This document shows, in pieces, positions 31,913 through 48,886 of a DNA stretch of 64,000 nt. The DNA comes from Acidimicrobiales bacterium. Lineage in GTDB: Bacteria > Actinomycetota > Acidimicrobiia > Acidimicrobiales > Aldehydirespiratoraceae. The notes under the pieces were generated by a model, which searched no databases, had not been told where the DNA came from, and worked only from the letters and a program-made list of their open reading frames with translations. Within the stretch, counting starts at the first letter, position 1. Each line of letters opens with the position of its first letter. Both the position numbers and the translations under genes were made by a program. Location: contig JAQWMR010000010.1 in assembly GCA_029246685.1 (NCBI GenBank), forward strand, positions 248,001 through 312,000. The letters are read 5' to 3'.

Positions 31913-31943
31913 CGGATCCGTTCCGCATCGCGGAACGGATCCG
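31913..31943. promoter_or_regulatory. IclR-type operator between serA and folC
   Basis: The core GTTCCGCATCGCGGAAC (31920-31936) is a perfect 7-3-7 palindrome, and the symmetry extends to 14-nt arms (31913-31926 and 31930-31943). It ends 1 bp before the folC ATG and is 70 bp from serA. The same 17-bp element occurs before fhs, before the IclR gene and before the formate dehydrogenase genes. TTCCGn5CGGAA-type dyads are typical for IclR-family proteins. Confidence 0.7.
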
Positions 31944-31944
31944 T

Positions 31945-33168
31945 ATGACGGAAGAGTCTACGGGGCCTGTCAAGGATGTCGAGACGTGGCTGTTGTCGCT
32001 GGCGGTCCACCCATCGGCCCGCGGCGAAGAGGCCCTATCGCTTGCCCGCGCGCTGGTCGACGAGCTCGACAACCCGCAGCGCGCGGCACCGGCCGTGCAC
32101 ATCATCGGCACCGCGGGGAAGGGCGCGGCGGCGTCGCTGCTCACGGACATGATCGTGCGCGCGGGTCACTCGGTCGCCACCCACGTGTCACCCCACGTCT
32201 ACGACATCCGCGAGCGGTTCACGCTCGACGGCGAGTTCCCGGACGACGATGCGCTCGCGACCGCGTTGGCGACCGTGCGCGTCGCGACGGGCCGAGTCCT
32301 CGACGAGCACGGCCGCCCGCCGACGTTCTTCGCCGCGTCGGCCGCGCTGTCATGGGTTCTCGGCCGCGACGCCGGAGTGGACGTCTTCGTCACCGAGGCC
32401 GGGATCGGCGGACGGCTCGACGCAACCGCAGTTCACGATCGACCCGACACCGTCACGGTGATCACGAATATCGGCCTCGACCACACCGACGTTCTCGGCG
32501 AGACGGTGCGCGAGATCGCCATGGAGAAGGTCGCCGTCATTTCCGGGCGGCGAGACGTGATCCTCGCGCCCCAGACCTACGAGGAAGCTCGCGAGGTCGT
32601 GGTTGCCCAATCTCAACAGGCGGGTTCTCGTCTCGTCGAAGTTCCGGCCATGGGCGGGTGGCGCGCCGACGCCGCCGCGACCGCGGATCAGGCGATGCAG
32701 ACGCTCGTGAGCCGGCACGGGTTCGAGCGCGCTCGATTCCGGGACGCAGGGTGGCCGCCCGGGCGTCACGAAGTGCGAGAGTTGGCCGGTCGCCGACTCC
32801 TGCTGGACGGTGCGCACAATCCGCTCAAGATCGCGGCTCTCATCCGCGACATGAACGGTGAACCGGCGCCGTCGGTCGCAGTGGTCGCCCTCGGCGCGGG
32901 AAAGGATCTTGCGGCCTGCGGGTCAGAACTGGTGTCGCTCGGCTGTCCGATCGTGGTCACCGAGTTCGGCGGAGACGACCCGCCGTACAGTCACGCGGCG
33001 AAGGATGTCGCGGCCGTGCTCCAAGGGCTCGGCGCCGACTGCGTGGCGGAGCCGAACCTGCCGGCGGCGACACGGCGAGCCCTGGCCGCGACGGAGGAGG
33101 GTGACACCATCCTCTTCACCGGTTCGTTCTTGATCCTTGCCGACGTCGTCGCGGCGATGGCGGGCTAG
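31945..33168 (+). CDS. folC: Folylpolyglutamate synthase/dihydrofolate synthase family (Mur ligase)
   Basis: The protein has 407 residues. FolC adds glutamates to tetrahydrofolate (and dihydropteroate) with ATP, retaining and activating the one-carbon carrier. The ATP loop is HIIGTAGKGAAASLL (A-G-K-G in place of the usual N-G-K-G-S), followed by FVTEAGIGGRLDATA, ITNIGLDHTDVLG and LLLDGAHNPLKI. ATG 31945 directly follows the IclR palindrome, so the operator would block or position RNA polymerase very close to the start. It is convergent with metF. Confidence 0.9.
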   Translation: MTEESTGPVKDVETWLLSLAVHPSARGEEALSLARALVDELDNPQRAAPAVHIIGTAGKGAAASLLTDMIVRAGHSVATHVSPHVYDIRERFTLDGEFPDDDALATALATVRVATGRVLDEHGRPPTFFAASAALSWVLGRDAGVDVFVTEAGIGGRLDATAVHDRPDTVTVITNIGLDHTDVLGETVREIAMEKVAVISGRRDVILAPQTYEEAREVVVAQSQQAGSRLVEVPAMGGWRADAAATADQAMQTLVSRHGFERARFRDAGWPPGRHEVRELAGRRLLLDGAHNPLKIAALIRDMNGEPAPSVAVVALGAGKDLAACGSELVSLGCPIVVTEFGGDDPPYSHAAKDVAAVLQGLGADCVAEPNLPAATRRALAATEEGDTILFTGSFLILADVVAAMAG

Positions 33169-33169
33169 A

Positions 33170-34045
33170 TCAGCCGAGCGCGCTCTGTTGCCACTCTCGG
33201 GTGGCTTCGACCTGGTTGAAGGTGAACGCGTGAATACCGGTGACGCCGAGCTTCTCGAAGTCGCGACCCAGCGGGTCGATGAGGTTGCTCGGGTTGTAGC
33301 CGGTGGATGCGAACAGGCGGACCAGCCCGGCCTTGTTCTTCTTGAGGTAGCGCAACGACGCGCCCACGCCGAGGCGCATGCCCATCGACATGAGCTTCGT
33401 GCGGTCGACCACACCCGGCACGCCGAGGTGGACCGGTAGCGCGAGGCCGGCCTCTCGCTCCGTTTTCAGCCACTTGCGGATCGCGTCGGTGCTGAAGCAC
33501 ATCTGGGTGGTTGCATGACCGGCCACGCCGGCCTCGGCGAAGAGTTCCTGCTTCTCGATGAGGGCAGTGCGCAGCGCGTGGGCGGGGATGAACGCGTGTC
33601 CGTCCGGGTAGCTCCCGACGCCGACGGCGGTGATCTCACCAGCCGCGACGTCGAGCAGCTCCCGCAGGAAAGCCATTGCGTCCGGGTAGTCGCCCGGCTC
33701 CTCGGCGTCGCCGCCGATGCAGAAGATCTCGGCGAGGCCGAGGGTCCTGCAGCGCGTGGCGAGCGCCTTCACGTGGTCCGCGTCCTGAACCATCCGAGCG
33801 GCGAGGTGCGGCACGGGGCGATGGCCGCGGTCCAGCAGCTCAGCGCAGATGTCGAGCGTCTCTTCGAGCGTCTTCACCGGCGACGCGGCGACGGAGATCC
33901 GCGTGTTGTCCGGGAGGTGCGGGATCTGCGCGGCGAGGCTCTTCATCGGGATGAGCTCGTAGGTCATGTCCTGCACGGCCGAGCGCACGGCCGGGTTGTT
34001 GATTGCCCGGTGGCCCCGGCGGAACGAGTACTCGATTGCGTTCAA
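33170..34045 (-). CDS. metF: Methylenetetrahydrofolate reductase
   Basis: This 291-residue flavin-binding TIM barrel interconverts methylene-THF and methyl-THF with NAD(P)H or another donor. Marks are RISVAASPVKTLEETLD near the start, VPHLAARMVQDADHV, IFCIGGDAEEPGDYPDAMAF and a conserved HATTQMCFSTDAI. It follows fhs by 9 bp and so belongs to the fhs transcript behind the double IclR-type operator. In a methyl-oxidising organism it may work in the oxidative direction. Confidence 0.9.
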   Translation of the reverse strand: MNAIEYSFRRGHRAINNPAVRSAVQDMTYELIPMKSLAAQIPHLPDNTRISVAASPVKTLEETLDICAELLDRGHRPVPHLAARMVQDADHVKALATRCRTLGLAEIFCIGGDAEEPGDYPDAMAFLRELLDVAAGEITAVGVGSYPDGHAFIPAHALRTALIEKQELFAEAGVAGHATTQMCFSTDAIRKWLKTEREAGLALPVHLGVPGVVDRTKLMSMGMRLGVGASLRYLKKNKAGLVRLFASTGYNPSNLIDPLGRDFEKLGVTGIHAFTFNQVEATREWQQSALG

Positions 34046-34054
34046 CAGGTGTCC

Positions 34055-35752
34055 TTACGAGAGGTTGATGACGTTGCCGTCAGCGTCGATGTCGATGGAG
34101 TGGGCTGCGGGCGTCTTGCCGAGTCCCGGCATGGTGCGCATGTCGCCGCAGATCGGGTAGACGAAGCCGGCACCGACGGAGGCGCGGACTTCGCGAACGG
34201 GAAGGGTCCAGCCGGTGGGCGCACCCTTGAGGCTTGCGTCGTGGCTGAGTGAGAGGTGCTGCTTGGCGATGCAGACCGGGAGGTTGTCGAACCCGGCGTC
34301 GGTGTAGGTCGCGAGTTGCTTGTCGGCCTGAGCGGAGTACTCCACCCCGTCAGCGCCGTAGACCTTCGTGGCGACCGCGTGGATCTTGTCCTTCAACGAG
34401 GCGTCGTCCGGGTAGAGCACCTCGAACTGTGACTCTTCTTCGGCCGCTTCCTTGATGGCGCTCGCGAGTTCGGTGGCGCCCTTGCCGCCGTCGGAGAAGT
34501 GGGTGGAAACGGCCGCTCGAGCGCCGTACTCGGCCGCGATCTCGTAGATGGCGGCGATGTCTTCGTCGTGGTCGCCGGGGAACACGTTGATCGCGACAAC
34601 TGGTGTGCAGCCGTGGATCCGCATGTTCTCGAGTTGCTTGCGGAGGTTGTCGCCCCCCTGGTGCACCTCGTCCGGGTTGGCCTCGAGGATCGCTTCGGGC
34701 AGGTCCTTGCCGGCGACGATCTTGTGGTTGCCGGAGTGCGCCTTGAGTCCGCGCACTGTCGCCACCAGGACAGCAGCGTCGGGCGCGAGGCCCGAGTAGC
34801 GGCACTTGATGTTGAAGAACCGCTCGGCCCCCATGTCGGCGCCGAAGCCGGCCTCGGTGAGCAGGAAGTCGCTGGTGTGGATGCCGATCTGGTCGGCGAC
34901 GATCGAGGAGTTGCCGGTGGCGATGTTGCCGAACGGACCCGTGTGCACGAGCGCCGGGGTGTTCTCCAACGTCTGCATCAGGTTCGGCTTGATGGCTTCC
35001 TTCAGGATGACCGCCATCGAGCCGGCGGCGCCGACCTCCTCGGCGGTGATCGGGGTACCGGCCTTGGAGTAGCCGAGCACGATCCGGCCGAGTCGCTCGC
35101 GTAGGTCCTGCAGTGACGTGCACAGCGCGAGCGTGGCCATCACCTCGGAGGCGGCGGTGATGTCGAAGCCGGTCTCGCGGGGAATGCCGTCGAGACGTCC
35201 TCCGAGGCCGATCACGGTGTTGCGCAAGGAGCGATCGTTGACGTCGAGCACGCGCCGCCAGGTGATGTTGTGCGGATCGAAGCTGAGATCGTTGCCGTGG
35301 TATAGGTGCGCATCGAGCAGCGCCGAGCACATGTTGTGCGCCGCTGTCACCGCGTGCATGTCGCCCGTGAGATGCAGGTTGAACAGTTCCATCGGCACGA
35401 CCTGGCTGTAGCCACCGCCGGCCGCTCCGCCCTTGATTCCGAACGTCGGACCCATCGACGGCTGACGAATCGCGATCGTGGCAGTGCTGCCGATGTGTTG
35501 GAACGCCTGGCCGAGGCCGACCGTGGTTGTGGTCTTGCCTTCACCGAGCGGGGTGGGGGTGATGGCCGAGACGACCACGTACTTCGCCCGAGGCCGATCC
35601 TGCATGCGGGGGATCGCGTCGAGGCTGATCTTCGCGGCACCGACGCCATAGGGCTCGAGGCAGTCCTCGGGGATGCCCGCGGTGGCGGCGATGTCGCCGA
35701 GCGGCTTGAGACTTGCTCCGTTTGCAATCTCGAGATCGGACGGAAAGCTCAC
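34055..35752 (-). CDS. fhs: Formate-tetrahydrofolate ligase
   Basis: Fhs reversibly makes 10-formyl-THF from formate, THF and ATP; in the reverse direction it releases formate and saves ATP. The 565 residues carry the ATP loop TPLGEGKTTTTVGL, QPSMGPTFGIKGGAAGGGY, LTGDMHAVTAAHN and LTEAGFGADMGAERF. It starts with GTG, with AGGGG a few bases upstream. Two IclR-type palindromes sit 74-108 bp before the start, next to a TATATT -10 element. Together with folD and formate dehydrogenase it forms a route from folate-bound carbon to CO2. Confidence 0.95.
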   Translation of the reverse strand: MSFPSDLEIANGASLKPLGDIAATAGIPEDCLEPYGVGAAKISLDAIPRMQDRPRAKYVVVSAITPTPLGEGKTTTTVGLGQAFQHIGSTATIAIRQPSMGPTFGIKGGAAGGGYSQVVPMELFNLHLTGDMHAVTAAHNMCSALLDAHLYHGNDLSFDPHNITWRRVLDVNDRSLRNTVIGLGGRLDGIPRETGFDITAASEVMATLALCTSLQDLRERLGRIVLGYSKAGTPITAEEVGAAGSMAVILKEAIKPNLMQTLENTPALVHTGPFGNIATGNSSIVADQIGIHTSDFLLTEAGFGADMGAERFFNIKCRYSGLAPDAAVLVATVRGLKAHSGNHKIVAGKDLPEAILEANPDEVHQGGDNLRKQLENMRIHGCTPVVAINVFPGDHDEDIAAIYEIAAEYGARAAVSTHFSDGGKGATELASAIKEAAEEESQFEVLYPDDASLKDKIHAVATKVYGADGVEYSAQADKQLATYTDAGFDNLPVCIAKQHLSLSHDASLKGAPTGWTLPVREVRASVGAGFVYPICGDMRTMPGLGKTPAAHSIDIDADGNVINLS

Positions 35753-35811
35753 ACTGACCCCTTTGTCCCTGCTTTTGTCAGGTGCTGTCCCATCGGCGGG
35801 GAAGCGGGGTC

Positions 35812-35860
35812 AATATAGCATTTCTGTTCCGAATAGTGGGACCGTTCCGTATGGTGGAAC
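35812..35860 (-). promoter_or_regulatory. fhs promoter with two tandem IclR-type operators
   Basis: GTTCCGAATAGTGGGAC (35826-35842, one mismatch from symmetry) and GTTCCGTATGGTGGAAC (35844-35860) are spaced exactly 18 bp centre to centre, on nearly the same helix face. On the minus strand a TATATT (-10-like, 35812-35817) follows, so the sites cover the -35 region and upstream. This geometry suits an IclR-type activator but does not exclude repression. The same pair with the same 18-bp step occurs at the formate dehydrogenase genes. Confidence 0.65.
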
Positions 35861-35881
35861 GAGAGAGTTAGACAACAGGGT

Positions 35882-35908
35882 GGTGGACAGGGTGGACAGG
35901 GTGGACAA
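35882..35908. repeat. Three tandem copies of a 9-bp unit
   Basis: GGTGGACAG is repeated three times (the last copy ends in A) just upstream of the fhs operators and just after the end of the lipoprotein gene. It is not a known regulatory element; it may be a simple slippage repeat. Confidence 0.6.
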
Positions 35909-35923
35909 CGGAGTGGAACGGCC

Positions 35924-36442
35924 TCAGGTCTCGGGCCGGTTCCGGCCGATCACGAACCCCAGCTTGCCCTGCACGAACTCGATGTCGAACTGATGTCCGG
36001 CGTCATCAGTGGTCAGCAATTGGAAAAAGTCGGGCGGTGTGAGGATTGAGCTGTCGACGGTCCAGCTGAGTTCGGTCACGGCCGCGAGGTAGAACGCGGC
36101 GAGCTCCTCGACTCCGAGACTCGTTGTTCCCCGTGCGCTCGTGATCCCGTCGATGGCGATCAGGGTGTCGATCGAGAGGTCGTCCGGGTGCGCGAGCGCC
36201 GGGTCGATCCAGTCGGGGATGTCGAGGTCGACGCCTGACGTGAATGACCCGCGGTCGTCGTCGAGAGAGATCGAATCCTCGTCGGGATCGATCGCGACGT
36301 CCGCGTCGTCGCCGAGCTCAGCCTCCAGGGCCTGCTCGAACTCACGAACGCCGGCGTCTTCCGCAGCGCCGCAGCCTGCGAGGGTCAACCCGACCAGCGC
36401 GACAAACGTCAGGAGCGCGAGCCGGGATGTGGTCGGACTCAG
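35924..36442 (-). CDS. Lipoprotein, hypothetical
   Basis: The signal sequence (SRLALLTFVALVGLTLAGC) ends in an LAGC lipobox. A mature acidic domain of about 150 residues follows, with paired patterns such as IDTLIAIDGIT, ELAAFYLAAVTEL and LTTDDAGHQFDIEFVQGKLGFVIG. No family is recognised. The start is unusual: the only candidate near the signal peptide is a CTG at 36442 that overlaps the stop of the broken TIR gene (CTGA), otherwise translation would begin far upstream at a Met with a poor leader. It was probably translationally coupled to the TIR gene. Confidence 0.5.
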   Translation of the reverse strand: MSPTTSRLALLTFVALVGLTLAGCGAAEDAGVREFEQALEAELGDDADVAIDPDEDSISLDDDRGSFTSGVDLDIPDWIDPALAHPDDLSIDTLIAIDGITSARGTTSLGVEELAAFYLAAVTELSWTVDSSILTPPDFFQLLTTDDAGHQFDIEFVQGKLGFVIGRNRPET

Positions 36443-37740
36443 TTGATGCCCGGGTGTTCCTTGTTGAAGATGTCGGTGGCGAGCCAGCCGTCGTAGACCG
36501 GCAGCCATACGTGCACGAGCCAGGTGTCGGAGGTGTCCATATTGGTTCCGCCGAGATTCGCGCACGCCTCATCCGTGATCTCGTCGCCGCACGACCTCTT
36601 GATCGCGGTCCAATCGTTCTCCTCGTCCACCTCGAGGCACAGAGGCCGTCCTGCACGAGGCGGAACGTGGCAACGATCGTGCTGCTGTCGTCGGGAAAGG
36701 AGATCCGTTCAGGTTTCCAGGCCTGCGTCCCCGCGCCGGCGACGCATGTGGTCATTGTGATCGTGTGATCGAGCCCGAGTTCCGTGCTGTCGAGGCATTT
36801 CGGCTCGACCCCCTCCCAGAACGGGACTTGCGACACGGCGACCGAAGGCTCGTCGAACTCGAAGTCGTTGAACAGGTAGACCTGCGCCGTCTTGGACTCG
36901 CAAGGGGTGAGTCGCGGCGGACCGTCGACGTTTTCGACAATCAGCGATTCGAGACAGAGGTCTTCGTCGATATGGACGCCCAAGAACAGCCCACCACCGC
37001 CCGAACTCGCGTCCACGAGAATCTCGGGGAGGGTCCGGTTGTCCACCGGCGTCGAACTGACGGGCTCGTCGTCGGCGTCGCTGCCGGCCGTTGTTGTGGT
37101 ATCCGCCACCGCCACCGCCACCGCCACCGCCACCGCCACCGCCACCGCCACCGCCATCGTCGTCACCGAGGCTGATCACCCACCCCAGGATTGCGATCAG
37201 CACGACCGCAGCGAATGCGGCGCCGACCACAACGCCTCGACGGTTCTTCGACTCTTGGGGGTGCTCGGCGGTTGTCGCCAGCTCCGGTTCGGGTTCGGGT
37301 TCGGGCTCGGGTTCGGGCTCTGGTTCTGGCTCCGGCTGCGCCGAGACGGGCGGGCCGAGAATCGCTTCCAGCGCCTCGACCAACTGGTCCTAGGCGTCGT
37401 AGTGCTCGTCGCGTCGCCAGTTGGAGAGATCCGCAGCCTGAAGGCGCCGGAACTCGAGCGGGATACGTACCTCCTCCAACAGGACCGGCACCAGGATGTT
37501 GCGGCCCAGACCCTCGGTCGCCTCGGTACGAACCCAGCGTTACGCCGCACTCGCGTCGGTCCAGACGCACACGACCGCCCTAGCCTCATCGATCGCTTCC
37601 TCGATGACCTCGTCGAAGGTTCGTCCAGGCGGAATCTACCGGTCCCACCACACCGACCAGCCGTGCGCCTCGGGGGAATCGGCGAGGTCGGCGACGCGAT
37701 CGCGGTCCGCCGACGCGTAGCTCATGAAGATGTCGACCAT
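36439..37740 (-). pseudogene. TIR-domain membrane protein, multiply interrupted
   Basis: From ATG 37740 the minus strand encodes MVDIFMSYASADRDRV and HGWSVWWDR, TAG, IPPGRTFDEVIEEAIDEARA, VVCVWTDASAA, TAA, RWVRTEATEGLGRNILVPVL, FRRLQAADLSNW, TAG, and DQLVEALEAILG. This is a complete TIR domain with three nonsense codons (37636-37638, 37540-37542, 37390-37392) but no frameshift. A PEPEPE linker, a membrane helix (GVVVGAAFAAVVLIAILGWV) and poly-Gly follow, then an outer Cys-containing domain in two other frames (LPEILVDASSGGGG; ENDWTAIKRSCGDE). Shifts lie in the Gly repeat and near 36640. TIR domains act in bacterial signalling or NAD-depleting defence. No catalytic call is made. Confidence 0.75.
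37103..37156. repeat. (CCGCCA)9 microsatellite inside the TIR gene
   Basis: Nine perfect copies of a hexamer encode poly-Gly on the minus strand in the TIR/TM frame, and Val-Ala repeats in the frame used downstream. The correct reading frame differs on the two sides of the repeat, so a non-triplet length change has happened in or next to it. Confidence 0.8.
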
Positions 37741-37787
37741 TTCGCCCCCGCCGCGGAGGCTACCGCTGAATCGCCGAAGGGTCGGTG

Positions 37788-38447
37788 CTACCCGGCGAGC
37801 GGCGATTCGAGCCGTTCCGTCACCGCGGCCCGGATGTCCTCGTCGAATGCCCGGACGTGGGCTTCGACGAGGCCTGCAACGTGGTCGCCGTCGCCGTCCT
37901 TCAGCGCGTCGAGGATCGTGCGGTGCTCGGTGACGGCATGGCCCATGTCGGCTACGTCCGCGAGGTAGAGGTGCCACAGGCGGTCGGACTGCGCATAGAG
38001 GGTGTCGAGGGTGTCGAGCAGAAAGCGGTTGCCGGACGCCTCCCAGATGAGCTCGTGACAACGACGATCGATGGCCATCAACGACTCGTTGTCGCCTTTC
38101 GCCTTCTTCGTTGCCTTCAGTTCGTCCGCCATCTCGGCCCATTGCTCGGCCGTGCCTCGAGCGGCGGCGAGGCGAGCAGCGTAGGGCTCGAGCACGGTCC
38201 TGGTCTCGAAAAGCATCGACAGCTCGCTGACGTCGATGCCGGCGACGAACATCCCGCGGCGCGGGATCACCGTGACGAAGTGCTCGCGGGCGAGGCGCTG
38301 GAGCGCTTCGCGGATCGGGGTACGGCCGATGCCGAGCTGCTCGCGGAGGTCGTCCTCGCGCAGGACGTCGCCGGGCGCGAGGTCGAGCCGCACGATCATC
38401 GTGCGGAGGTCGTTGTAGGCGGTTTCGCTGAGCGTGAGTTCGGGCAT
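37788..38447 (-). CDS. GntR family regulator, FCD subfamily
   Basis: This 219-residue protein has an N-terminal winged helix (REDDLREQLGIGRTPIREALQRLAREHFVTVIPRRG, about 30-65) and an all-helical FCD ligand domain with metal-type histidines (DRRCHELIWEASGN, TEHRTILDAL). FCD regulators usually sense organic acids and act as repressors. It is divergent from the dimethylglycine dehydrogenase-like gene, with a perfect dyad between them, so it very probably controls that gene. Confidence 0.88.
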   Translation of the reverse strand: MPELTLSETAYNDLRTMIVRLDLAPGDVLREDDLREQLGIGRTPIREALQRLAREHFVTVIPRRGMFVAGIDVSELSMLFETRTVLEPYAARLAAARGTAEQWAEMADELKATKKAKGDNESLMAIDRRCHELIWEASGNRFLLDTLDTLYAQSDRLWHLYLADVADMGHAVTEHRTILDALKDGDGDHVAGLVEAHVRAFDEDIRAAVTERLESPLAG

Positions 38448-38544: not shown

Positions 38545-41082
38545 GTGAGCGACATTCCCAACAGTGGCTTCCCAACCAGTGCCAAGTGCGTCGTCATCGG
38601 CGCCGGCATCGTCGGCAACTGCGTCGTCGGCCACCTCGCCCGCCTCGGATGGAAGGACCTCGTCCTCCTCGACAAGGGTCCGCTGCCCAACCCCGGCGGC
38701 TCCACCGGCCACGCGTCGAACTTCATCTTCCCCGTGGACCACAACAAGGAGATGGCGCTGCTCGGTGAGCAGTCCGCCAACCAGTACCGCGATATGGATC
38801 TATCGGTGGATTCCGGTGGCATCGAAGTCGCCCGCACCCAAGAGCGGATGGTCGAACTCCAGCGGCGCATGACCTCCGCAAAGGCATGGGGCATCGAGGC
38901 CCACCTGCTCACCCCGGCAGAGGTGAAGGAGCATGTCCCCTTCATCAACGGCGAGGTCATCCTCGGCGGCTTCTACTGCCCGACCGTGAGCGTGGTCGAC
39001 TCGCTCGAAACCGGCACCACCATGCGCAAGGAGGCCATCGACAAGGCCGGCCTGCAGGTATTCGCCAACACCGAGGTGCTGGACGTCATCACTGACGACA
39101 CGCCCCGCCCCAACGGGCGCCGCAAGGTCACCGCGGTCGAGACGGACAAGGGTACGATCGAGGCTGAGTACGTCGTCATTGCCTGTGGCGTGTGGTCGAA
39201 CCGCATCGCTTACATGGCCGACACGTACATTCCGCTCGTCCCTGCCGTGCATCAGATGGCCGATGTCGGTCCGATGGACATCCTGGCGGAGACGAACAAC
39301 GAGATCGGCTACCCGATCGTCCGTGACATGGACACGTTCTGTTACGAGCGCCAGTCCGCCGGCTCGATGGAGGTCGGCTCCTACGCCCACCGCCCGATCC
39401 TGCATCACCCCGATGAGATTCCGTCGAACGCAGAGGCGGCGTTGTCGCCCACCGAGTTCCCCTTCACGCCGGACGACTTCGACCAGCAGATGGAAGAGGC
39501 CATCGAGTTGATGGACATGCTCGGCGATGCCGAGATCAAGTACGCGATCAACGGGCTGCTCTCCCTCACGCCGGACGGCATGCCGTGCCTCGGCGAGATG
39601 CCCGACGTCGAAAATCTCTGGTCTGCGGCAGCCGTGTGGGTCAAGGAAGGGCCCGGCATGGGTCAGGTCGTCGCCGAGTGGATGCACTACGGGTACCCGC
39701 GGGTCATCGACTCGCACGGCGCCGACGTCGCCCGCTTCTACGACGAAGAGAAGAGCGACGAGCACATCTGGGCCCGCGCCGAGGAGTCGTTCAACAAGAC
39801 GTACGGCATCGTGCACCCCGCCGAGCAGTGGGCCGACCGGCGCATGCTCGTTGACTCGCCCTACCGCAGCCGTCAGGAAGCTCTTGGCGCCGAGTTCTTC
39901 CAGGCCCGCGTGTGGGAGCGGCCGCAGTGGTACACGTCCAACGCCGACTTGGTCGAGCGCTACGGCCTCGAAGAGCGCAAGGTCGAGTGGGACAACCGCT
40001 GGTGGAGCCCGATCACGGTCGCCGAGCACCTGAACCTGCGCGAGAACTGCGGTCTCATCGACCTCAGCGCCTTCCAGATCTACGAGCTTGAGGGCTCCGG
40101 CGCCGTGGAGTTCGCGGACTACCTGGCGGTCAACAAGATCGACGTGCCAGTCGGCCGTTCGGTCTACACCCCTTGGCTCAACGCCGACGGTGGCTTCCAC
40201 TCGGATCTGACGATGATGCGGATGGCCGAGGATCGGGTCCGGATCGTCACCGGTGTGTTCGATGGCGGCCGCGACGACTTCTGGGTTCGCAAGCACATGC
40301 CGAACGACGGCTCGGTCACCTTCACCAACCTCAGCAAGGAGATCAGCACGCTCGGTCTCTGGGGTCCCAACGCGCCGGCCGTGCTCGGTCAACTCACCGA
40401 CCAGGACCTCAGCCAGGACGGCTCGCCCTACGGCAGCTACCTCCCGGTGACGATCGCTGGCGTCGAGTGCCACCTCTTCCGGATCTCCTACGTGGGCGAC
40501 ACCGGCTGGGAGATCTACGTGCCGTGGGACCAGGCCCCGTCGGTGTTCGACGCGATCATGAAAGCCGGTGAGGATCACGGCCTGCGGGTCACCGGCGGTG
40601 GCGTCTACAGCCTCTCCGGTCGGATCGAGAAGGGCTATCGCCTGATGGGCGCCGAGCTGGAGAGCGAGTACAACCCGGTCGAGGCCGGGCTCGCTCGCCC
40701 GAAGGTGAAGGCGGCCGACTTCATCGGCAAGGAGGCCTACCTGGCTGCCCGCGAAGCCGGCTCCGAGGTGCAGTGCGTCACGCTGATCGTCGACGACAAC
40801 GTCGACAGCCAGGGTCGCCAACGGTTCATGCAGGGCGGCAACGAGCCGATTCTCGATCTCGACGGCAACCGCATCGTCGACAGCCACGGCCGCGCCAGCC
40901 GCGTGACCACTGCCGGCTACGCCCCATCGCTTGGCAAGAACCTGCTCATGGGCTATCTGCCCAACGAGCTGGCCGAACCCGGCACCAAGCTCCAGTCCAT
41001 GTACATGAACGAGCTCTACCCCTGCACCGTTGTCGGCCCGGGATCCGCCTTCGACCCCGACGACACCCGCCTCAAGAGCTAA
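38545..41082 (+). CDS. FAD-dependent oxidoreductase with GcvT domain (dimethylglycine/sarcosine dehydrogenase family)
   Basis: This is an 845-residue two-part enzyme. Residues 1-400 are a DAO-type flavoprotein (CVVIGAGIVGNCVVGHLARLG, then STGHASNF where the covalent-flavin histidine usually sits). Residues 430-840 are an aminomethyltransferase (GcvT) domain with FRISYVGDTGWEIYVP and LEKGYR-like IEKGYRLMGAE. Such enzymes oxidatively demethylate dimethylglycine, sarcosine or similar N-methyl compounds, hand the methyl carbon to THF as methylene-THF and pass electrons to ETF. The etfBA genes follow directly. The substrate is inferred; other methylated amines are possible. Confidence 0.85.
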   Translation: MSDIPNSGFPTSAKCVVIGAGIVGNCVVGHLARLGWKDLVLLDKGPLPNPGGSTGHASNFIFPVDHNKEMALLGEQSANQYRDMDLSVDSGGIEVARTQERMVELQRRMTSAKAWGIEAHLLTPAEVKEHVPFINGEVILGGFYCPTVSVVDSLETGTTMRKEAIDKAGLQVFANTEVLDVITDDTPRPNGRRKVTAVETDKGTIEAEYVVIACGVWSNRIAYMADTYIPLVPAVHQMADVGPMDILAETNNEIGYPIVRDMDTFCYERQSAGSMEVGSYAHRPILHHPDEIPSNAEAALSPTEFPFTPDDFDQQMEEAIELMDMLGDAEIKYAINGLLSLTPDGMPCLGEMPDVENLWSAAAVWVKEGPGMGQVVAEWMHYGYPRVIDSHGADVARFYDEEKSDEHIWARAEESFNKTYGIVHPAEQWADRRMLVDSPYRSRQEALGAEFFQARVWERPQWYTSNADLVERYGLEERKVEWDNRWWSPITVAEHLNLRENCGLIDLSAFQIYELEGSGAVEFADYLAVNKIDVPVGRSVYTPWLNADGGFHSDLTMMRMAEDRVRIVTGVFDGGRDDFWVRKHMPNDGSVTFTNLSKEISTLGLWGPNAPAVLGQLTDQDLSQDGSPYGSYLPVTIAGVECHLFRISYVGDTGWEIYVPWDQAPSVFDAIMKAGEDHGLRVTGGGVYSLSGRIEKGYRLMGAELESEYNPVEAGLARPKVKAADFIGKEAYLAAREAGSEVQCVTLIVDDNVDSQGRQRFMQGGNEPILDLDGNRIVDSHGRASRVTTAGYAPSLGKNLLMGYLPNELAEPGTKLQSMYMNELYPCTVVGPGSAFDPDDTRLKS

Positions 41083-41091: not shown

Positions 41092-41138
41092 TTTTCTGAA
41101 CCGTGAGTCGCGCATGGCGCGACTCACGGTTCAGAAAA
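41092..41138 (+). promoter_or_regulatory. Perfect 22-bp stem hairpin before etfB
   Basis: Arms 41092-41113 and 41117-41138 are fully complementary with a 3-nt ATG loop; the stem begins TTTTCTGAACC. No run of T follows on the plus strand (GCAGGAGAGG comes next, then etfB), so it is not a standard intrinsic terminator. It could stabilise or process the mRNA between the flavoprotein and etfBA, or lower downstream expression. Confidence 0.6.
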
Positions 41139-41155
41139 GCAGGAGAGGAACGACG

Positions 41156-41941
41156 ATGAAGATTCTTTGTTGTGTGAAACGGGTGCCGGCTCCCGGCGCC
41201 AAGATCAATGTGACGGCCGATGGCATGGACGTCGACGCAGCCCATCTCGGGTTCACCACGAGCCCGCACGAGGAGTGCGGGGTCGAAGGTGCGATCCAGC
41301 TGAAGGAGGAGCACGGGGGCGAGGTCACGGTGCTCACGCTCGGCCCGGGTGACGCGGAGGAGCAGCTGCGCTACGCGGCCTCGGTCGGTGCGGACCATGG
41401 TGTCCTCATTGCGACCGACGGCACGGCGTACGACCCACAGCGCACGGCGGCGGCAATCGTCGAAGCGGTCGAGGAGCTGGAGTCCGCCGAAGGCGGCGAC
41501 GGGACAGAGGACGGCGAGTTCGATCTGATCCTGTTCGGCAACGAGTCCGCTGATGCCGGCGGGTTCCAGGTCGGCATCCGGGTCGCCCATGCGCTCGGCC
41601 GTCCGATCGTGCAGGGCATCAAGGGCATCGAGGTGGGCGACGAGTCGATCACTGCTCGCCGCGAGATCGACGGTGGGTTCGAGGTCTACGAACTGCCCCG
41701 CCCGGCGGTCCTCGGCGTGAAGGAGGGGCTCAACCTGCCTCGCTATCCGACGATGAAGGGTCGCTTGGCCTCGAAGAAGATCGAGATCCAGTCGATGGAG
41801 GTCGACGCTGACGAGGGTGGCCAGAGCCGCGTCAGGCTGCACCGTCCAGAAGAGCAGATCTCAGAGACCGTCATCCTCGGTGAAGGTCCAGAGGCGGCGG
41901 CCGCTGTGGTCGATGTGCTCGAGGAACTGGGGGTGCTCTGA
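41156..41941 (+). CDS. etfB: Electron transfer flavoprotein, beta subunit
   Basis: This is a 261-residue AMP-binding subunit of ETF. The opening MKILCCVKRVPAPGAKI, the DPQRTAAAIVEAVEE helix, the DLILFGNESADAGGFQVGIRVAHALG strand and the terminal LPRYPTMKGRLASKKIE are family signatures. AGGAGAGG about 8 nt before the ATG is a strong ribosome-binding site. Its likely role is to accept electrons from the upstream GcvT-type flavoprotein and from the acyl-CoA dehydrogenases. Confidence 0.95.
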   Translation: MKILCCVKRVPAPGAKINVTADGMDVDAAHLGFTTSPHEECGVEGAIQLKEEHGGEVTVLTLGPGDAEEQLRYAASVGADHGVLIATDGTAYDPQRTAAAIVEAVEELESAEGGDGTEDGEFDLILFGNESADAGGFQVGIRVAHALGRPIVQGIKGIEVGDESITARREIDGGFEVYELPRPAVLGVKEGLNLPRYPTMKGRLASKKIEIQSMEVDADEGGQSRVRLHRPEEQISETVILGEGPEAAAAVVDVLEELGVL

Positions 41942-42906
41942 TGTTGCTCGTCGTTCTCGAACACGAACGGGGCGAGCTGGTCGAAGCCGCTTGCGAAGCG
42001 CTCACCTTCGGTCGCGTCCTCGCGGCGAAGATGGGCGAGGATCTCGAAGCCGCCCTCATCGGCTCTGACGACGATGCCCTCGTCGCGGCCGCCGGCGAGT
42101 ACGGCGCCGAGACGGTCCACACCTGCACCCACGACGTGCTGTCCGACTACGGCCCGGACGCCTACGGCGCGGTCGTCGCCCAGATGGTCGAGTCGCTCTC
42201 ACCGGAAGCGGTGCTGGCGTGCGGATCGGACCGCGGCAACGAAATCATGGCTCAGGCTGCGGCGCGGCTCGGCTCTCCGTTCGTCGCCAACTGCAAGGAC
42301 GTCACCCCAGGCGATGCGTGGTCGATGACCCGGGTCCAGTGGGGTGGCTCGCTCCTGGAAGACACGGCGATCGACGCTGATGTCGCCCTGCTCTCGTGCG
42401 GCCTCCACACGGTCGCGGCGGAGCCTGGCGGCGCGCAGAACGCCGACGCAGAGGAGTTCGAGGCTGCACTCGACGAGTCGCATGCCATCACGATCGTGAA
42501 GGACCGGGTCGTCCAGGAAGCCGGCGTCACGTTGCCGACCGCACCTGTGGTTGTCGGCGGTGGTCGCGGCGTCGGCAGCGAGGACGGGTTCGCCCAGCTC
42601 GAGGCCCTTGCCGAGTTGCTCGGCGGACGCGTCGGCTGCTCGCGAGCTGTGACCAACCTCGGTTGGCGCCCCCACTCGGATCAGGTCGGCCAGACCGGCA
42701 CTCGCATCGCGCCCGAGGTCTACATCGCGTCCGGCATCTCCGGCGCCATCCAGCACTGGGTTGGCGCCATGGCGTCGAAGCACATTCTCGCGATCAACAC
42801 CGACCGAGAGGCCAACATGGTCGTCAAGGCGGACTGGGCCGTGATCGCCGACCTCCACGAGGTCATCCCCGCGATCACCGAAGAGGTCAAGCGGCGCCGC
42901 GGCTAA
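41941..42906 (+). CDS. etfA: Electron transfer flavoprotein, alpha subunit
   Basis: This 321-residue FAD-binding subunit overlaps etfB by 1 nt (TGATG). The FAD site is VVVGGGRGVGSEDGF, then LGWRPHSDQVGQTGTRIAPEVYIASGISGAIQHW and the terminal INTDREANMVVKADWAVIADL. With EtfB it carries electrons to the quinone pool through an ETF:quinone oxidoreductase, which is not in this window. Confidence 0.95.
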   Translation: MLLVVLEHERGELVEAACEALTFGRVLAAKMGEDLEAALIGSDDDALVAAAGEYGAETVHTCTHDVLSDYGPDAYGAVVAQMVESLSPEAVLACGSDRGNEIMAQAAARLGSPFVANCKDVTPGDAWSMTRVQWGGSLLEDTAIDADVALLSCGLHTVAAEPGGAQNADAEEFEAALDESHAITIVKDRVVQEAGVTLPTAPVVVGGGRGVGSEDGFAQLEALAELLGGRVGCSRAVTNLGWRPHSDQVGQTGTRIAPEVYIASGISGAIQHWVGAMASKHILAINTDREANMVVKADWAVIADLHEVIPAITEEVKRRRG

Positions 42907-42931: not shown

Positions 42932-44128
42932 TCACAGCGTCGCGAGCTGTGGACCCATCAAGTCGAGCATGTTGTCGCAGTAGAATTTCTGCCTGACGGT
43001 CTCGGAGCGATCACCGAGGCTGCGCTCGAAGCGGCCATACGGGTCGCGGCCGCCTTCCACGTGCGGGTAGTCGGACGAGAACAGGCAGATGTCGGGGCCG
43101 AGGTTGTCCGTGATCCAGCCCACGTCCTCGGTCGGGTAGGGCGTTGCGCGAACCTGCCGCTGGAGGTAGTCGGTCGGCCGGAGCGAGAGTCCCTGCAGCC
43201 GCTCCTCGTGGCGCACGAACGCGTCGAACGCCGACTCCATGCGCTTGGCGAAACTCGGCAGCCAGACCGCTCCCTGTTCGATCACACCGATTCGGAGGCC
43301 GGGGAATCGCTCCAGCACCCCGTCGAAGATCAGCGTGGCGAGCGTCTGCATGGGCGGGTGGGCGATGCCCATGTAGTCGACCGAGCGGAAGTTCTCCTCG
43401 CCGCCGTGGAAGTCGGGCGGGATCGGCAGGCCGTTGTTGAAGTACGCCGGCGACAGCAGCTCGCCGGTGCCACCGACGTGGAAGACGACCGGCACCTGCG
43501 CCTCTTCGGCCTGCACCCACACCGCGTCGAGGCCGATGTGTGACGGCGAGTGATCCGGTGGACAACCGGAGGCGACGAGCAGTGCGCCGGCCCCTGCGTC
43601 GATCGACTCCTGAGCGATCTTCGTGGCGATGTCGATGTCGAACAACGGCACGTAACAGGTGGACAACAACCGCTCGTCCACCGAACAGAACTCTGTCATG
43701 GCTCGGTTGTGGGCCCGGGCCACACCCGTCGCCAGCTCGGCGTCGCCCGAGTGTTCCCAGTCCCGGAGGCGCGTGTTGTGGAAGGTGTTGAACATGAGCT
43801 GCGATGACACGCCCATGTAGTCGAGCACGCGGGGCCGGTCTTGCGCTATGAACGAACCGGTCGCCGCGAAGTTCTTGCGCAGCATCACCTCACCGGCCTC
43901 GTCGGCTCGGTACTCGTCCGATTGGTGACGTTCGATCAGCCGGGCGAACGCGCTGTCGATGTCGGCGAGCTGCTCGTCGTTGTCGCCCGTCTGGCGGAGT
44001 TCGTTCGCGTATCCGGGCACCTCCACACGATCCCGGATCGACGGGTCGGCGTGGTCGCGGAGCCAGTTCGGCAACTCCATGATGTGGGCGTCGGCGTCGT
44101 GGACGACCCGGCCTTCGATGTAGCTCAT
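42932..44128 (-). CDS. Amidohydrolase family protein (PF04909-type)
   Basis: This is a 398-residue metal-dependent hydrolase/decarboxylase-like TIM barrel. HDADAHIMELP near the start gives the first metal motif, followed by VFHVGGTGE, IGVIEQGAVWLPSF and the late LFSSDYPHVEGGRDP carrying the catalytic aspartate. Members hydrolyse or decarboxylate aromatic or cyclic acids; the substrate here is unknown. It is just downstream of the iclR gene on the same strand, so it may also be under that regulator. Confidence 0.85.
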   Translation of the reverse strand: MSYIEGRVVHDADAHIMELPNWLRDHADPSIRDRVEVPGYANELRQTGDNDEQLADIDSAFARLIERHQSDEYRADEAGEVMLRKNFAATGSFIAQDRPRVLDYMGVSSQLMFNTFHNTRLRDWEHSGDAELATGVARAHNRAMTEFCSVDERLLSTCYVPLFDIDIATKIAQESIDAGAGALLVASGCPPDHSPSHIGLDAVWVQAEEAQVPVVFHVGGTGELLSPAYFNNGLPIPPDFHGGEENFRSVDYMGIAHPPMQTLATLIFDGVLERFPGLRIGVIEQGAVWLPSFAKRMESAFDAFVRHEERLQGLSLRPTDYLQRQVRATPYPTEDVGWITDNLGPDICLFSSDYPHVEGGRDPYGRFERSLGDRSETVRQKFYCDNMLDLMGPQLATL

Positions 44129-44139: not shown

Positions 44140-44886
44140 TCAGTCGATGGCGAGGTGTTCGGCGATGCTCGCAGCTGCCTCCATCACGAGGATGCCGAGA
44201 TCGTGGGTTCGCTCCGGATCCGGGAACCGATAGGCGGGTCCATGGATGTGGACCGCTGACTCGACCGAGCCGTCGGGCTCGAAGATGGGTGCGGCGATCG
44301 AGTTGATGCCGTCGGCGAACTCCTCATAGACCCACGCGTATCCAATGCTGCGGACCTGTTCGAGACGATCGCGGATCTCGTCGGGGTCGACGATGGTCCA
44401 CGACGTGGTCCGGGTGAGGTCGGATCGCAGAAACGCGTCGAGCTTCTTGTCCGGCCAGTACGCCATTACCGCGAGACCCGAGGGAACGGCGTGGATCGGG
44501 CAGTTCTCGCCGGTCCAGTCGCGGACTTGGACCTCGGCTTCAGCATTGGCGTGGTCGAGGTAGTACATGTCGCGACCGTCGGGCACCGAGATGCCGGCTG
44601 TCTCGTTCGACCGCTCCATCAGTTCCAGGAGGTGGGGTCGGGCGGTGGCGACGAGGTTGCGCCCGGGCTGGGCCGCGCCGGCGATGTCGAGCAAGCCGTC
44701 GCCGAGCCGGTAGTCGCCGCCGATCTCGTTCTGGGTGACGGCGCCCTCTGTCTCGAGCGCGCTCAGGAGGCGGGCGACCGTGGACTTCGGCAGCTCGACG
44801 CGGTCGGCGAGATCCGTGACTCCCGCGGGCCCGAGCGCGAGCGCCCGTAGCAACGTGAACGCTCGCTCGATCGACTGCACCGACAT
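44140..44886 (-). CDS. IclR family transcriptional regulator, likely controller of the one-carbon regulon
   Basis: This 248-residue protein has an N-terminal winged helix (SVQSIERAFTLLRALALG, then GVTDLADRVELPKSTVARLL at about 22-41) and a C-terminal IclR effector domain (ETAGISVPDGRDMYYLDHAN, PIHAVPSGLAVMAY, INSIAAPIFEPDG). The ATG at 44886 is chosen at the start of homology. A perfect-type palindrome GTTCC-N7-GGAAC lies 28 bp upstream, indicating self-control. The same palindrome before serA/folC, fhs-metF and formate dehydrogenase makes this the best candidate for their regulator; the effector may be a folate-linked or methylated compound. Confidence 0.87.
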   Translation of the reverse strand: MSVQSIERAFTLLRALALGPAGVTDLADRVELPKSTVARLLSALETEGAVTQNEIGGDYRLGDGLLDIAGAAQPGRNLVATARPHLLELMERSNETAGISVPDGRDMYYLDHANAEAEVQVRDWTGENCPIHAVPSGLAVMAYWPDKKLDAFLRSDLTRTTSWTIVDPDEIRDRLEQVRSIGYAWVYEEFADGINSIAAPIFEPDGSVESAVHIHGPAYRFPDPERTHDLGILVMEAAASIAEHLAID

Positions 44887-44900
44887 CGGCACCACGGTAC

Positions 44901-44930
44901 GTTCCGTTTTCGCGTTCCACAATGCGGAAC
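44901..44930 (-). promoter_or_regulatory. IclR-type operator before the iclR gene
   Basis: GTTCCACAATGCGGAAC (44914-44930) matches the shared 17-bp element with one asymmetric base pair per arm. A further half-site GTTCCG (44901-44906) is 13 bp away towards the gene. The position 28 bp before the start codon fits autoregulation. Confidence 0.65.
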
Positions 44931-44965
44931 AGGTGCGCAACGAGACGGTGTGGAACGAGAACGCG

Positions 44966-46672: not shown

Positions 46673-46710
46673 GGCCCGTCACCGTACCTGGTGGGCGCGG
46701 CAGCTCCCTG

Positions 46711-47226
46711 CTACTTCTGGTCCCGCTCCCGGCGGTGTTTGCGCATCTGTTCGGCCGCCCGTGCGGAGGCGTCGGCGATGACGTGGCGTTCGCGGTCGGT
46801 CCACTGCGACAGCAGGTGGTCCTCGATCAGCATCGCGTGGCCGACAGAAGCATCGGCGAGCACCCCGGCACCGTCATCCAGAAGGACGGCGACGATCCCC
46901 CGCTTGTCCCTCTCCGCGGAGCGACGGGTGATCCAGCGGCGTCGCTCGAGACGGTCGAGTGTGTGGGTCAGCTTCGACTTCGACGACACGCAGAGCTCCG
47001 CGAGTTCGCGTAGCCGCATCTCGCCTCCGTTGCCGTCGAGGCGAACCAGCACTTCGTAGTCGGTGAGGGTCATACCGTGTTCATCGGCGAGATGCCGGGC
47101 GAGGATCTCCTCGATCAGGCGAGCCGCGTCGAAGAAGCGGGTAAAGGTGAACAGGTCGTCCGTGGTGAGGTGACGGCCCGTCCCGGCGAGATCGGCGGGG
47201 TCGTACTCGGGCCGCTCGAGAGTCAT
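46711..47226 (-). CDS. MarR family transcriptional regulator
   Basis: This 171-residue winged-helix protein contains MTLTDYEVLVRLDGNGGEMRLRELAELCVSSKSKLTHTLDRLERRRWITRR with the wing SAERDKRGIVAVLL. ATG 47226 overlaps the stop of the DUF2231 gene by 4 nt. No ligand is known, and its target may be the small membrane protein and lipoprotein upstream in the same run. Confidence 0.85.
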   Translation of the reverse strand: MTLERPEYDPADLAGTGRHLTTDDLFTFTRFFDAARLIEEILARHLADEHGMTLTDYEVLVRLDGNGGEMRLRELAELCVSSKSKLTHTLDRLERRRWITRRSAERDKRGIVAVLLDDGAGVLADASVGHAMLIEDHLLSQWTDRERHVIADASARAAEQMRKHRRERDQK

Positions 47227-47684
47227 TGCAGGACGCCGTCCCAGACGATCCTCGACCCCTCGTGTCCGGCCCGAATGATCCACGTCGTCGCCAACACGCC
47301 GATCACAGCAGTGAACGCCATCGCTCCTTGCAGCACCACTTCTCGGTCGGCGTACCTCGTCATTCGCTGCAGTACGGCAACTCCGAGCGCTGCCGCGAAG
47401 AACGCGATGGTGAACCAGACCGCCGTCTCGGCCAACTGTTGGTGCTCTTCGGCGAGCGGACCGATCCGCGACGACAGCACCTCATTGAGCTCTTCCCCCG
47501 AGCGGGCCGCGAGCACGGCGCCCAGCGCGCCGATGAAGGCGGCCGCCGCGAGCGCCGTGCTCGCCTGCGCCCGCCAGGCTCGGCGCCCAGCCAACGCCAC
47601 CGCGACGACGGCGTTCACGGGCACGAGAACAAGGGGGAGGTGAATGAAGAACGGGTGAGCGGGAAGGTCGAACAGCGAACGCAT
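47223..47684 (-). CDS. DUF2231 membrane protein
   Basis: This is a 153-residue protein with four transmembrane helices. The family opening HPFFIHLPLVLVPV is present (conserved HP and H-P residues that may bind heme or metal). It follows the cupredoxin-like lipoprotein by 10 bp and overlaps the MarR gene, so the three form a small operon. This combination of a copper-type lipoprotein and DUF2231 suggests a redox role at the membrane, which is inference. Confidence 0.8.
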   Translation of the reverse strand: MRSLFDLPAHPFFIHLPLVLVPVNAVVAVALAGRRAWRAQASTALAAAAFIGALGAVLAARSGEELNEVLSSRIGPLAEEHQQLAETAVWFTIAFFAAALGVAVLQRMTRYADREVVLQGAMAFTAVIGVLATTWIIRAGHEGSRIVWDGVLQ

Positions 47685-47694
47685 CAGGTAGCGG

Positions 47695-48249
47695 TCACCC
47701 CACGCTGACGGAGAGGGTCTGGCCGCTTGCGGCGTGACTGTTCGGCCCGAATGCGATGTTGCAGAAGAGGACGTAGTCGCCGGGCGCCAGGTCGAACCCG
47801 ACCTCGGTCATCGCGCCGGCATCCAGGATTTCGGTCTTGCCGAGGAAGTCGGCGCCGAGGGCTTCCTCGTCGATTGCTCCGGTCTCGAGCTTCGGCAGAT
47901 CTTCGTAGCTGGTGCCCATGGCAATGCCGAACTCATGGGGGAACTGGCCTTCGTTGGTGACGGCGAAGGTCTGGACGCCGGCAGCGATGTCGCCGTCGAC
48001 AGTGACACTGAACTCGGCGAGCCCGACTGCGGTCGGTCCGGCGGGAGCGTCGTCCGGCTCGTCGACCGGGGTGCTCGTGTCGTCGGCGTGATCATCGTCG
48101 ACGATTTCTGACTCCGCGGGATCGTCGGCCGGCGCTTCTGTTGTGGTCGTTGTGGTGGTCGTCTCCGGGGGATCGGATGATTCGCTGTCGTCGCCACAAG
48201 CGGCGAAGAAGAGGGCGGCGATGGCGATGAGAGCAGCAATACGGCGCAA
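47695..48249 (-). CDS. Lipoprotein with cupredoxin-like domain
   Basis: TTG 48249, preceded by GAGG 5 nt away, starts MRRIAALIAIAALFFAACGDD, a lipoprotein signal with an FAAC lipobox. A Thr-rich and Asp/Pro-rich linker follows, then a domain of about 100 residues with FPHEFGIAMG, DYVLFCNIAF and SHAASGQ. These give His, Cys and His at copper-ligand positions of cupredoxins; the usual methionine appears to be Gln. It is 184 residues long and exported to the outside of the membrane. Confidence 0.72.
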   Translation of the reverse strand: MRRIAALIAIAALFFAACGDDSESSDPPETTTTTTTTEAPADDPAESEIVDDDHADDTSTPVDEPDDAPAGPTAVGLAEFSVTVDGDIAAGVQTFAVTNEGQFPHEFGIAMGTSYEDLPKLETGAIDEEALGADFLGKTEILDAGAMTEVGFDLAPGDYVLFCNIAFGPNSHAASGQTLSVSVG

Positions 48250-48355
48250 GGGGGCCTCGGATCTGATTGGTTGGCTAGTTGAATACTGGACGACAATCTT
48301 GCAGGTCGTCGGCGGTGCAACGTAGCGCACGCTTCGGCGCAGCTAGTTTCGGTTC

Positions 48356-48825
48356 ATGAGTCGGAAGGCGCTCGCCTGGGTTGTCGCCGCGCCCGTCGCG
48401 GCGGCCGTGATCGCGCTCATGCTCGATGGGCCTGACCGTCAGGCGGTCCAGCCGATCGGGCGTGCCCAGGGCGACGCCTCAGTGGAGATAGAACTCCACG
48501 ATCCGTGGGTCAACGACGCGGTCACCCGAGCGTGGGCAGTGGATCCCGTCACGACCGTCGGCAATGCGATCGCACACAACGACGAGCAGCGACGCAGGTG
48601 TTTCTCGAAGTCGGCGGCTACGACGCGGTCGTCGTCTACTCCCTCTTCCCGTCGTGCGGCATCGCCCCGGAGATCCGCGCTCGCCGTTGGGATGACCGCG
48701 TTGCAGTCGACCTGAAGAGCATCGGAGGCTGCGACGGCGAGATGCGCCACGTACGCGCGATCGGCTTGGAGCTCGCCCACGGGGTTGACGCGACGCTGCT
48801 CACGGCGAGCCATCAGGACCCGTGA
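48356..48825 (+). pseudogene. Exported small protein, frameshifted
   Basis: ATG 48356 begins a signal-like sequence (SRKALAWVVAAPVAAAVIAL) followed by a domain reading VEIELHDPWVNDAVTRAWAV and NAIAHNDEQ. At about 48597 the frame must shift by one base to continue ATQVFLEVGGYDAVVVYSL, FPSCGIAPEIRARRWDDRV and AIGLELAHGVDATLLTA to the TGA at 48823. A lost G (CAGGCG to CAGCG) would explain it. The family is not recognised. It ends just before the formate dehydrogenase operators. Confidence 0.6.
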
Positions 48826-48851
48826 AACCGTTCTCCATGCCGTTCCCTAGT

Positions 48852-48886
48852 GTTCCGTGATGCGGTACCGTTCCGCTATGCAGAAC
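48852..48886 (+). promoter_or_regulatory. Two tandem IclR-type operators over the formate dehydrogenase start
   Basis: GTTCCGTGATGCGGTAC (48852-48868) and GTTCCGCTATGCAGAAC (48870-48886) each differ from symmetry at one position and are 18 bp apart, as at fhs. All candidate start codons (GTG 48857, ATG 48860, ATG 48878) lie within them. Either the message is leaderless or the regulator binds at the very start of the transcribed region. Confidence 0.65.

Follow-up and report, generated by a model that had tools for sequence, protein, structure and literature searches.

The window examined here is a 64,000-nucleotide stretch of an Acidimicrobiales genome (NCBI GenBank assembly GCA_029246685.1, contig JAQWMR010000010.1, positions 248,001 to 312,000). 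It carries genes of one-carbon metabolism, a gene for an IclR-family regulator and, in front of several of these, a 17-bp palindrome near GTTCCGnnnnGCGGAAC. An original prediction, made from the letters alone, listed six copies of this palindrome, all of them preceding one-carbon genes or the regulator gene, and read them as the operators of an IclR-controlled regulon with self-control. A pattern search of the window recovered all six sites where they had been placed, with 0–2 mismatches each in the better orientation. A seventh box, absent from the earlier list, was found at 31938..31954, where it partners the box at 31920. The putative operator boxes are the following:

31920..31936, operator box 1 of the serA/folC pair, GTTCCGCATCGCGGAAC; within the tandem match C18:279920
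31938..31954, operator box 2 of the serA/folC pair, GATCCGTATGACGGAAG, 18 bp from box 1; includes the folC ATG (31945)
35826..35842, operator box 1 of the fhs-metF2 pair (pattern and tandem search)
35844..35860, operator box 2 of the fhs-metF2 pair (pattern and tandem search)
44914..44930, single operator box of the IclR gene; centre 36 bp 5′ of the IclR ATG
48852..48868, operator box 1 of the formate dehydrogenase pair (pattern and tandem search)
48870..48886, operator box 2 of the formate dehydrogenase pair; includes the ATG at 48878

The genes around the boxes are:

30638..31843, minus strand, serA-like phosphoglycerate dehydrogenase (TIGR01327 275 bits, under the 454 cut-off)
31945..33168, plus strand, folC, folylpolyglutamate/dihydrofolate synthase family (TIGR01499 201 bits, cut-off 163)
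33170..34045, minus strand, divergent MetF-like protein, here called metF2 (Pfam MTHFR 33.7 over 24; TIGR00676 41.8, far under 293.7)
34055..35752, minus strand, fhs, formate-tetrahydrofolate ligase (NF010030 786 bits, cut-off 652)
38545..41082, plus strand, dimethylglycine dehydrogenase-like protein (DAO and GCV_T domain matches)
41114-41941 and 41941-42906, plus strand, etfB and etfA, 3′ of the dehydrogenase (family-level matches, under cut-offs)
44140..44886, minus strand, IclR-family regulator predicted to bind the boxes, with Lys34 in the recognition helix (HTH_IclR and IclR_C over gathering scores)
48878..50827, plus strand, catalytic formate dehydrogenase subunit without the N-terminal Fe-S domain, in-frame TGA at 49172 (TIGR01591 650 bits, just under 666)
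50661..52574, plus strand, NuoE/NuoF-like formate dehydrogenase subunit; the open reading frame (ORF) as listed overlaps the preceding gene and its start is probably later
52367..53431, plus strand, Fe-S subunit with Fer2_4, Fer4 and Molybdop_Fe4S4, the N-terminal part missing from 48878-50827; start probably later

Three of the four places in the window hold tandem pairs (31920/31938, 35826/35844 and 48852/48870) with a period of exactly 18 bp; the serA/folC pair reads GTTCCGCATCGCGGAAC-G-GATCCGTATGACGGAAG, and the box before the IclR gene at 44914 is single. The boxes fit GTTCCRYATNRYGGAAC, which occurs at 4 places in the genome with 0 mismatches. Their central bases vary from site to site, and it is in the centre that individual boxes deviate. 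Relative to the start codons, box centres lie at −85/−103 for serA, −17/+1 for folC, −82/−100 for fhs, −36 for iclR and −18/0 for fdh. Once the pairing is counted, the case becomes stronger than originally claimed. The single-box pattern with up to 3 mismatches matches the window 69 times, compared with a mean of 47.9 and a largest value of 68 in 100 shuffles; this loose pattern alone is weak, and it is the pairing that carries the case. A matrix made from 11 boxes of this genome found eight window boxes scoring at least 16, against a mean of 0.13 and a maximum of 2 in 30 Markov controls, a count that is partly circular in that seven of the eight were among the boxes used to build the matrix. 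The eighth, at 38784, falls within the coding sequence for dimethylglycine dehydrogenase and was rejected as an internal operator, the encoded peptide explaining its score: in 53 aligned genes the mean score was −3.7 against a synonymous expectation of −4.5, with 13% of genes at p <0.1 and a p of 0.02 for this genome's own copy.

The genome-wide scan that the original prediction had proposed placed the pair far above random density. In 3.80 Mb (20 contigs, 94% complete), the 35-bp pair pattern with up to 3 mismatches was found at 6 places, compared with 0.16 expected from base composition, 0 for the reversed-pattern control and 0 in 20 Mb of Markov sequence; as regards sites outside the window, the scan is non-circular. 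Five of the six matches precede one-carbon genes, three within the window and two outside it. The fourth place, C18:344459, lies 5′ of a minus-strand operon encoding an MtgC-like corrinoid protein, a DUF1638 protein, a PRK07535-type methyl-tetrahydrofolate:corrinoid methyltransferase (mtrH), a RACo-type corrinoid activator and an MttB-family methyltransferase. The fifth, C10:587741, is 5′ of a metF homologue (TIGR00676 267.5 bits, somewhat under the 293.7 cut-off). Both were invisible from the window alone and both fall within the pathway predicted below. The original reading as a one-carbon regulon was supported; the regulon had been drawn too small, the corrinoid operon lying about 32 kb beyond the window. 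The sixth match, C3:48688, has 3 mismatches, sits 47-81 bases inside an amidase ORF and was put down to chance. Four single boxes that depart from the pattern by one or two mismatches (C7:60698, C10:775999, C10:288642 and C2:118084) are inside mechanically listed ORFs and were set aside without being excluded. A promoter scan was uninformative (1 found, shuffles mean 1.4).

Conservation of the pair was assessed in 248 genomes of the order, at loci chosen by protein and not by motif. MtgC gave 63 matches in 62 genomes (E <=1e-60), and 61 upstream regions were examined, two distant ones (48-49% identity) being left out. With a matrix derived from this genome's boxes only, a pair was found 5′ of mtgC in 43 of the 61, own genome included; in a first set of 30 the count was 24, and the coding control showed no box. 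When the best generalised pair was sought over periods 12 to 30, period 18 came out in 46.8 of the 61 loci (ties shared), and at 54 of them a generalised pair reached p <=0.02 by shuffling. The 18 loci without a matrix-level pair fall into three kinds. At 14, a sister IclR gene is divergently adjacent, usually with a variant pair that keeps the period; in 11 of the 14 the pair reached p <=0.02. Two have mtgC internal to a fhs-metF2-mtgC row; L142 has a standard pair at the row head, and the stretch of L193 stops within fhs. The last two (L198, L206) have no pair, and their genomes gave no IclR match at 1e-30.

A further set consisted of the best 80 of 224 loci collected by the IclR protein. 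All bear titles of metagenome-assembled genomes, and 65 of them are labelled Acidimicrobiia, Acidimicrobiales or Acidimicrobiaceae (one is labelled Rhodobacterales). The matrix found 79 pairs in their 1.34 Mb, whereas each of ten permuted matrices found 0. Counted up to 300 bp from the gene start in these loci, a pair precedes fhs in 38 of 40 cases, the dimethylglycine dehydrogenase gene, often a divergent neighbour of fhs or metF2, in 44 of 52, mtgC in 4 of 4, folC in 2 of 2 and metF2 in 10 of 45. For proS, which often adjoins fdh or iclR, the count was 16 of 40. No pairs were found in the 80 loci before the internal operon genes etfA (0/61), etfB (0/58) and fdhB (0/37). The claim of self-control was supported in that the IclR gene has a pair in 14 of 79 relatives and a box, single or tandem, within 300 bp in 51 of 79. 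Spread beyond the order was not sustained, since outside it 11 genomes match compared with 17 for the control pattern.

The protein encoded at 44140-44886 belongs to the IclR family by both of its domains (PF09339 51.0 over 22, PF01614 112.3 over 24). Among the 248 genomes, a tandem with up to 2 mismatches occurs in 42, an IclR match at 1e-30 in 62 and both in 36 (Fisher p 1.7e-20); none of the 7 genomes with a control-pattern match is in the IclR set. Co-occurrence alone cannot name the regulator, because the pathway co-occurs with IclR too: the IclR and mtgC lists, 62 genomes each, share 56. The IclR gene adjoins mtgC or lies in the cluster in many relatives. The motif itself is of a published class. 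IclR group 1 has the consensus GKTYCRYW3-4RYGRAMC, with a 17-bp subgroup GTTYCRYW3RYGRAAC, tandem sites 18-22 nt between centres (mainly 19-21) in 94 orthologous groups, and sites that peak around the start codon or overlap it (Suvorova and Gelfand 2021, PMC8222616). The boxes described here share with this GTT-11-AAC class the motif, the tandem arrangement and the start-codon sites; their spacing of 18 is at the lower end of the reported range. Co-occurrence, the motif class and the co-change of regulator and operator described below together suggest that the original assignment to IclR was right.

The co-change concerns residue 34 of the regulator, which by our alignment with the table of PMC8222616 is helix-turn-helix position 28 (Arg47 of TtgV); that study links position 28 by correlation to the outer motif positions, 7/25 and 8/24. 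In 47 regulators, with pairs located by a score blind to the outer bases, Lys34 proteins (PKSTVAR and close forms) went with GTTCC..GGAAC, the outer base being G in 111 of 120 half-sites (30 proteins). Thr34 proteins went with TTCCC..GGGAA (outer T in 30/48, 12 proteins), and Leu/Ile/Val34 proteins with CTTCC..GGAAG (outer C in 13/20, 5 proteins). The count omits genomes with an IclR in L122 or L208-L219, and the omitted mtgC loci L187, L191, L203 and L205 would bring in C, G and A as further outer bases; at L196 and L197 the core-only score chose a different spot than the earlier placement. Operators of sister paralogues mostly keep the 18-bp period while their outer bases differ. One genome, G219, holds both circuits: its dmgdh-etfB-etfA-iclR(Lys34) row is preceded by a GTTCC pair, and a TTCCC pair separates mtgC from a divergently oriented iclR(Thr34). 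The genome studied here has a second IclR protein of its own (36% identity, Thr34, C18:316152) with a TTCCCGCTCTGTGGGAA box, of the TTCCC..GGGAA type, about 50 bp upstream.

As side observations, a two-circuit arrangement as in G219 was seen in G239, where a contig end (L140 1-528) holds part of a dimethylglycine dehydrogenase gene (89% identity) with a standard GTTCC pair directly in front, and mtgC has a TTCCC-type pair and a Thr34 IclR (L158). The second IclR paralogue of the present genome (L062 4146-10255, C18, about 4 kb past the window) precedes a second gene of the MTTB family and another DAO/GCV_T gene; this locus is probably a parallel demethylation system.

From these comparisons of sequence we hold with good confidence that the palindromes are a conserved operator-like element likely bound by the 44140-44886 IclR protein, which would co-regulate its own gene with genes predicted to serve demethylation of methylated amines and oxidation of the methyl groups; that is, a real, order-wide and likely IclR-controlled regulon. 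Several observations weigh against this reading. At the 2-mismatch cut-off no tandem was found in 26 of the 62 IclR genomes, and 6 of the genomes with a tandem gave no IclR match at 1e-30. Both mtgC and a pair are present in G209 (L163) and G094 (L202), again with no IclR match at 1e-30, and G149 has pairs with a best IclR match only 33% identical. Among the 80 IclR loci a pair precedes fdhC in only 23 of 52 (31 with single boxes) and serA in 2 of 7. Canonical metF, present in 10 of 33 genomes searched, has a pair in 1 of the 10 (this genome) and a single box in one more, and was not sustained as a conserved target. The dimethylglycine dehydrogenase operon of this genome has no box at its own promoter, unlike that of most relatives examined. 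On a regulator tree that kept the recognition-helix columns, the residue-34 classes need only two changes, with one independent pair; because this is so, the co-change is suggestive and is not an independent statistical test. Finally, pairs lying at −82 to −103 are as compatible with activation as with repression.

The 56 genomes shared by the IclR and pathway lists make the two nearly one set, and this, with the two genomes that carry a pair and lack an IclR match, would also be expected if the boxes were a real operator of the pathway bound by another co-travelling regulator, the IclR gene being merely a target. We regard this as improbable: the motif is of the published IclR type, where sister IclR clades differ at a recognition-helix residue, the outer bases of the accompanying operators differ as well, and the IclR gene looks autoregulated in 51 of 79 relatives and in many of them is found next to mtgC or in the cluster; the two exceptional genomes are fragmented assemblies or may hold a more distant IclR. 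An origin of the boxes as chance matches or as copies of a dispersed repeat is hardly credible. The loose single-box pattern is indeed common (69 window matches against up to 68 in shuffles), but the tandem scan gave 6 against 0.16 expected, the same promoters keep their pairs across the order, and the central bases differ between sites.

As to the mode of action, two IclR dimers (a tetramer) would occupy one pair, and in the absence of substrate the protein most likely represses. Repression is favoured because pairs overlap the folC and fdh start codons, the other boxes lying 36-103 bp 5′ of the starts. A compound of the pathway, perhaps a methylated amine or a demethylation product, would release the protein. 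Activation in place of repression, or both, as proposed for the relative BhcR, is a possible but less probable mode. The fhs, serA and metF pairs have their centres at −82 to −103, and BhcR, the closest NCBIfam equivalog, has been proposed to act both ways (PMC11323563). The folC (−17/+1) and fdh (−18/0) pairs, however, overlap the start codon, a hard place for an activator, although the upstream side of the folC pair could still serve serA.

BhcR (PMC11323563) and the E. coli proteins IclR/AllR (PDB 2o99, 1tf1), which respond to glyoxylate, share family and domain order with the IclR protein described here, yet the glyoxylate-sensor equivalogs fall far under cut-off (NF045644, the BhcR model and best NCBIfam match, 145.8/350; NF008601 110.1/380; NF007548 94.8/406). 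The acetate-repressor stretches DDEEHALGLRC and ISISGP correspond in this protein to VYEEFADGINS and VHIHGP. We take those stretches to be the pocket and effector contacts of the acetate repressor.

The corrinoid operon gives the regulon a candidate pathway. Its methyltransferase is an MttB-superfamily enzyme without pyrrolysine (MTTB 722.8 bits, open frame of 514 amino acids), whose closest solved sequences are 4yyc (putative trimethylamine methyltransferase), 2qne and 9yce (glycine betaine methyltransferase). It stands beside the MtgC-type protein, which has B12-binding domains (best MtgC model 203.7, under the 370 cut-off). In G196, fhs, metF2, mtgC, mtrH, raco and mttB are in one row behind one pair, which ties the pathway genes together without appeal to the motif. 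Going by these family matches, glycine betaine or a similar quaternary amine would be demethylated by the MttB-family methyltransferase onto the MtgC-like corrinoid protein, kept active by RACo; the MtrH-like protein would pass the methyl group to tetrahydrofolate, MetF2 and Fhs would oxidise the folate-bound carbon to formate, and the putative selenocysteine formate dehydrogenase would oxidise formate to CO2. Dimethylglycine dehydrogenase would supply further one-carbon units. The DUF1638 gene, between mtgC and mtrH (L016 5093-5830), recurs in several relatives.

We tentatively propose, without considering it the more probable outcome, a joint reading in which quaternary-amine methylotrophy forms one IclR-controlled programme in Acidimicrobiales, reaching from corrinoid demethylation to the split selenocysteine formate dehydrogenase. 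A change of one recognition-helix residue would have set duplicated IclR regulators apart as orthogonal circuits within a genome, Lys34 reading GTTCC..GGAAC, Thr34 TTCCC..GGGAA and Leu/Ile/Val34 CTTCC..GGAAG, and the protein would sense a methylated amine or demethylation product and not glyoxylate.

The kind of system is already known, namely an IclR group 1 regulon; what is new is this unusually well delimited regulon. Betaine, sarcosine, formate and tetrahydrofolate are absent from the main text of the group 1 paper (PMC8222616). Demethylation of glycine betaine by MtgBCD has been described in aerobic marine bacteria, namely proteobacteria (PMC12478193); those systems share MtgB/MtgC-type proteins with the one described here, and genes for later demethylation and one-carbon oxidation are often nearby. 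In the available text of that paper the word "regulator" occurs once, in a reference title. The present system differs in that RACo, DUF1638, Fhs, the divergent MetF and the putative selenocysteine formate dehydrogenase share one operator. A search of a literature library, covering partial texts and the main text of PMC8222616, returned no description of an IclR regulator of corrinoid demethylation or folate one-carbon oxidation. A largely uncultivated order thereby gains a sequence-defined regulon linking amine demethylation, folate chemistry and formate oxidation, in which co-regulation predicts functions for DUF1638, the divergent MetF and the split formate dehydrogenase. The paralogue pair with differing operators is a natural test of DNA reading by the IclR recognition helix.

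The formate dehydrogenase alpha subunit is split and reordered within 48878-53431, the catalytic part coming first, then the NuoE/NuoF-like subunit and last the Fe-S/Molybdop_Fe4S4 part. The TGA at 49172 would be a selenocysteine position. In a peptide-pattern search of relatives, TGA was present at the same codon in 52 of 52 homologues. A tRNA-Sec match scored 64 bits over a cut-off of 47, and all 14 control genomes match too, 5 of them over the cut-off. No selenocysteine insertion sequence was found by Rfam in 30000-56000.

Between the fhs pair and the dimethylglycine dehydrogenase operon, whose dehydrogenase has dimethylglycine oxidase 1pj5 as closest solved sequence, sits a gene for a GntR/FCD regulator (37788-38447), as it does in G084 and G149; in most other relatives examined a pair lies immediately 5′ of the dimethylglycine dehydrogenase gene. 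The operon may have been handed to another regulator in this lineage. The interval from the fhs pair to the GntR gene (35861-37787, about 1.9 kb) contained no recognisable Pfam gene in the ORFs tried, one Trypan_PARP match being under cut-off. On the other side of the operon, an Amidohydro_2 gene (42932-44128) begins 11 bp past the end of the IclR gene and may be co-transcribed with it; a homologue was seen in only 4 relatives' loci.

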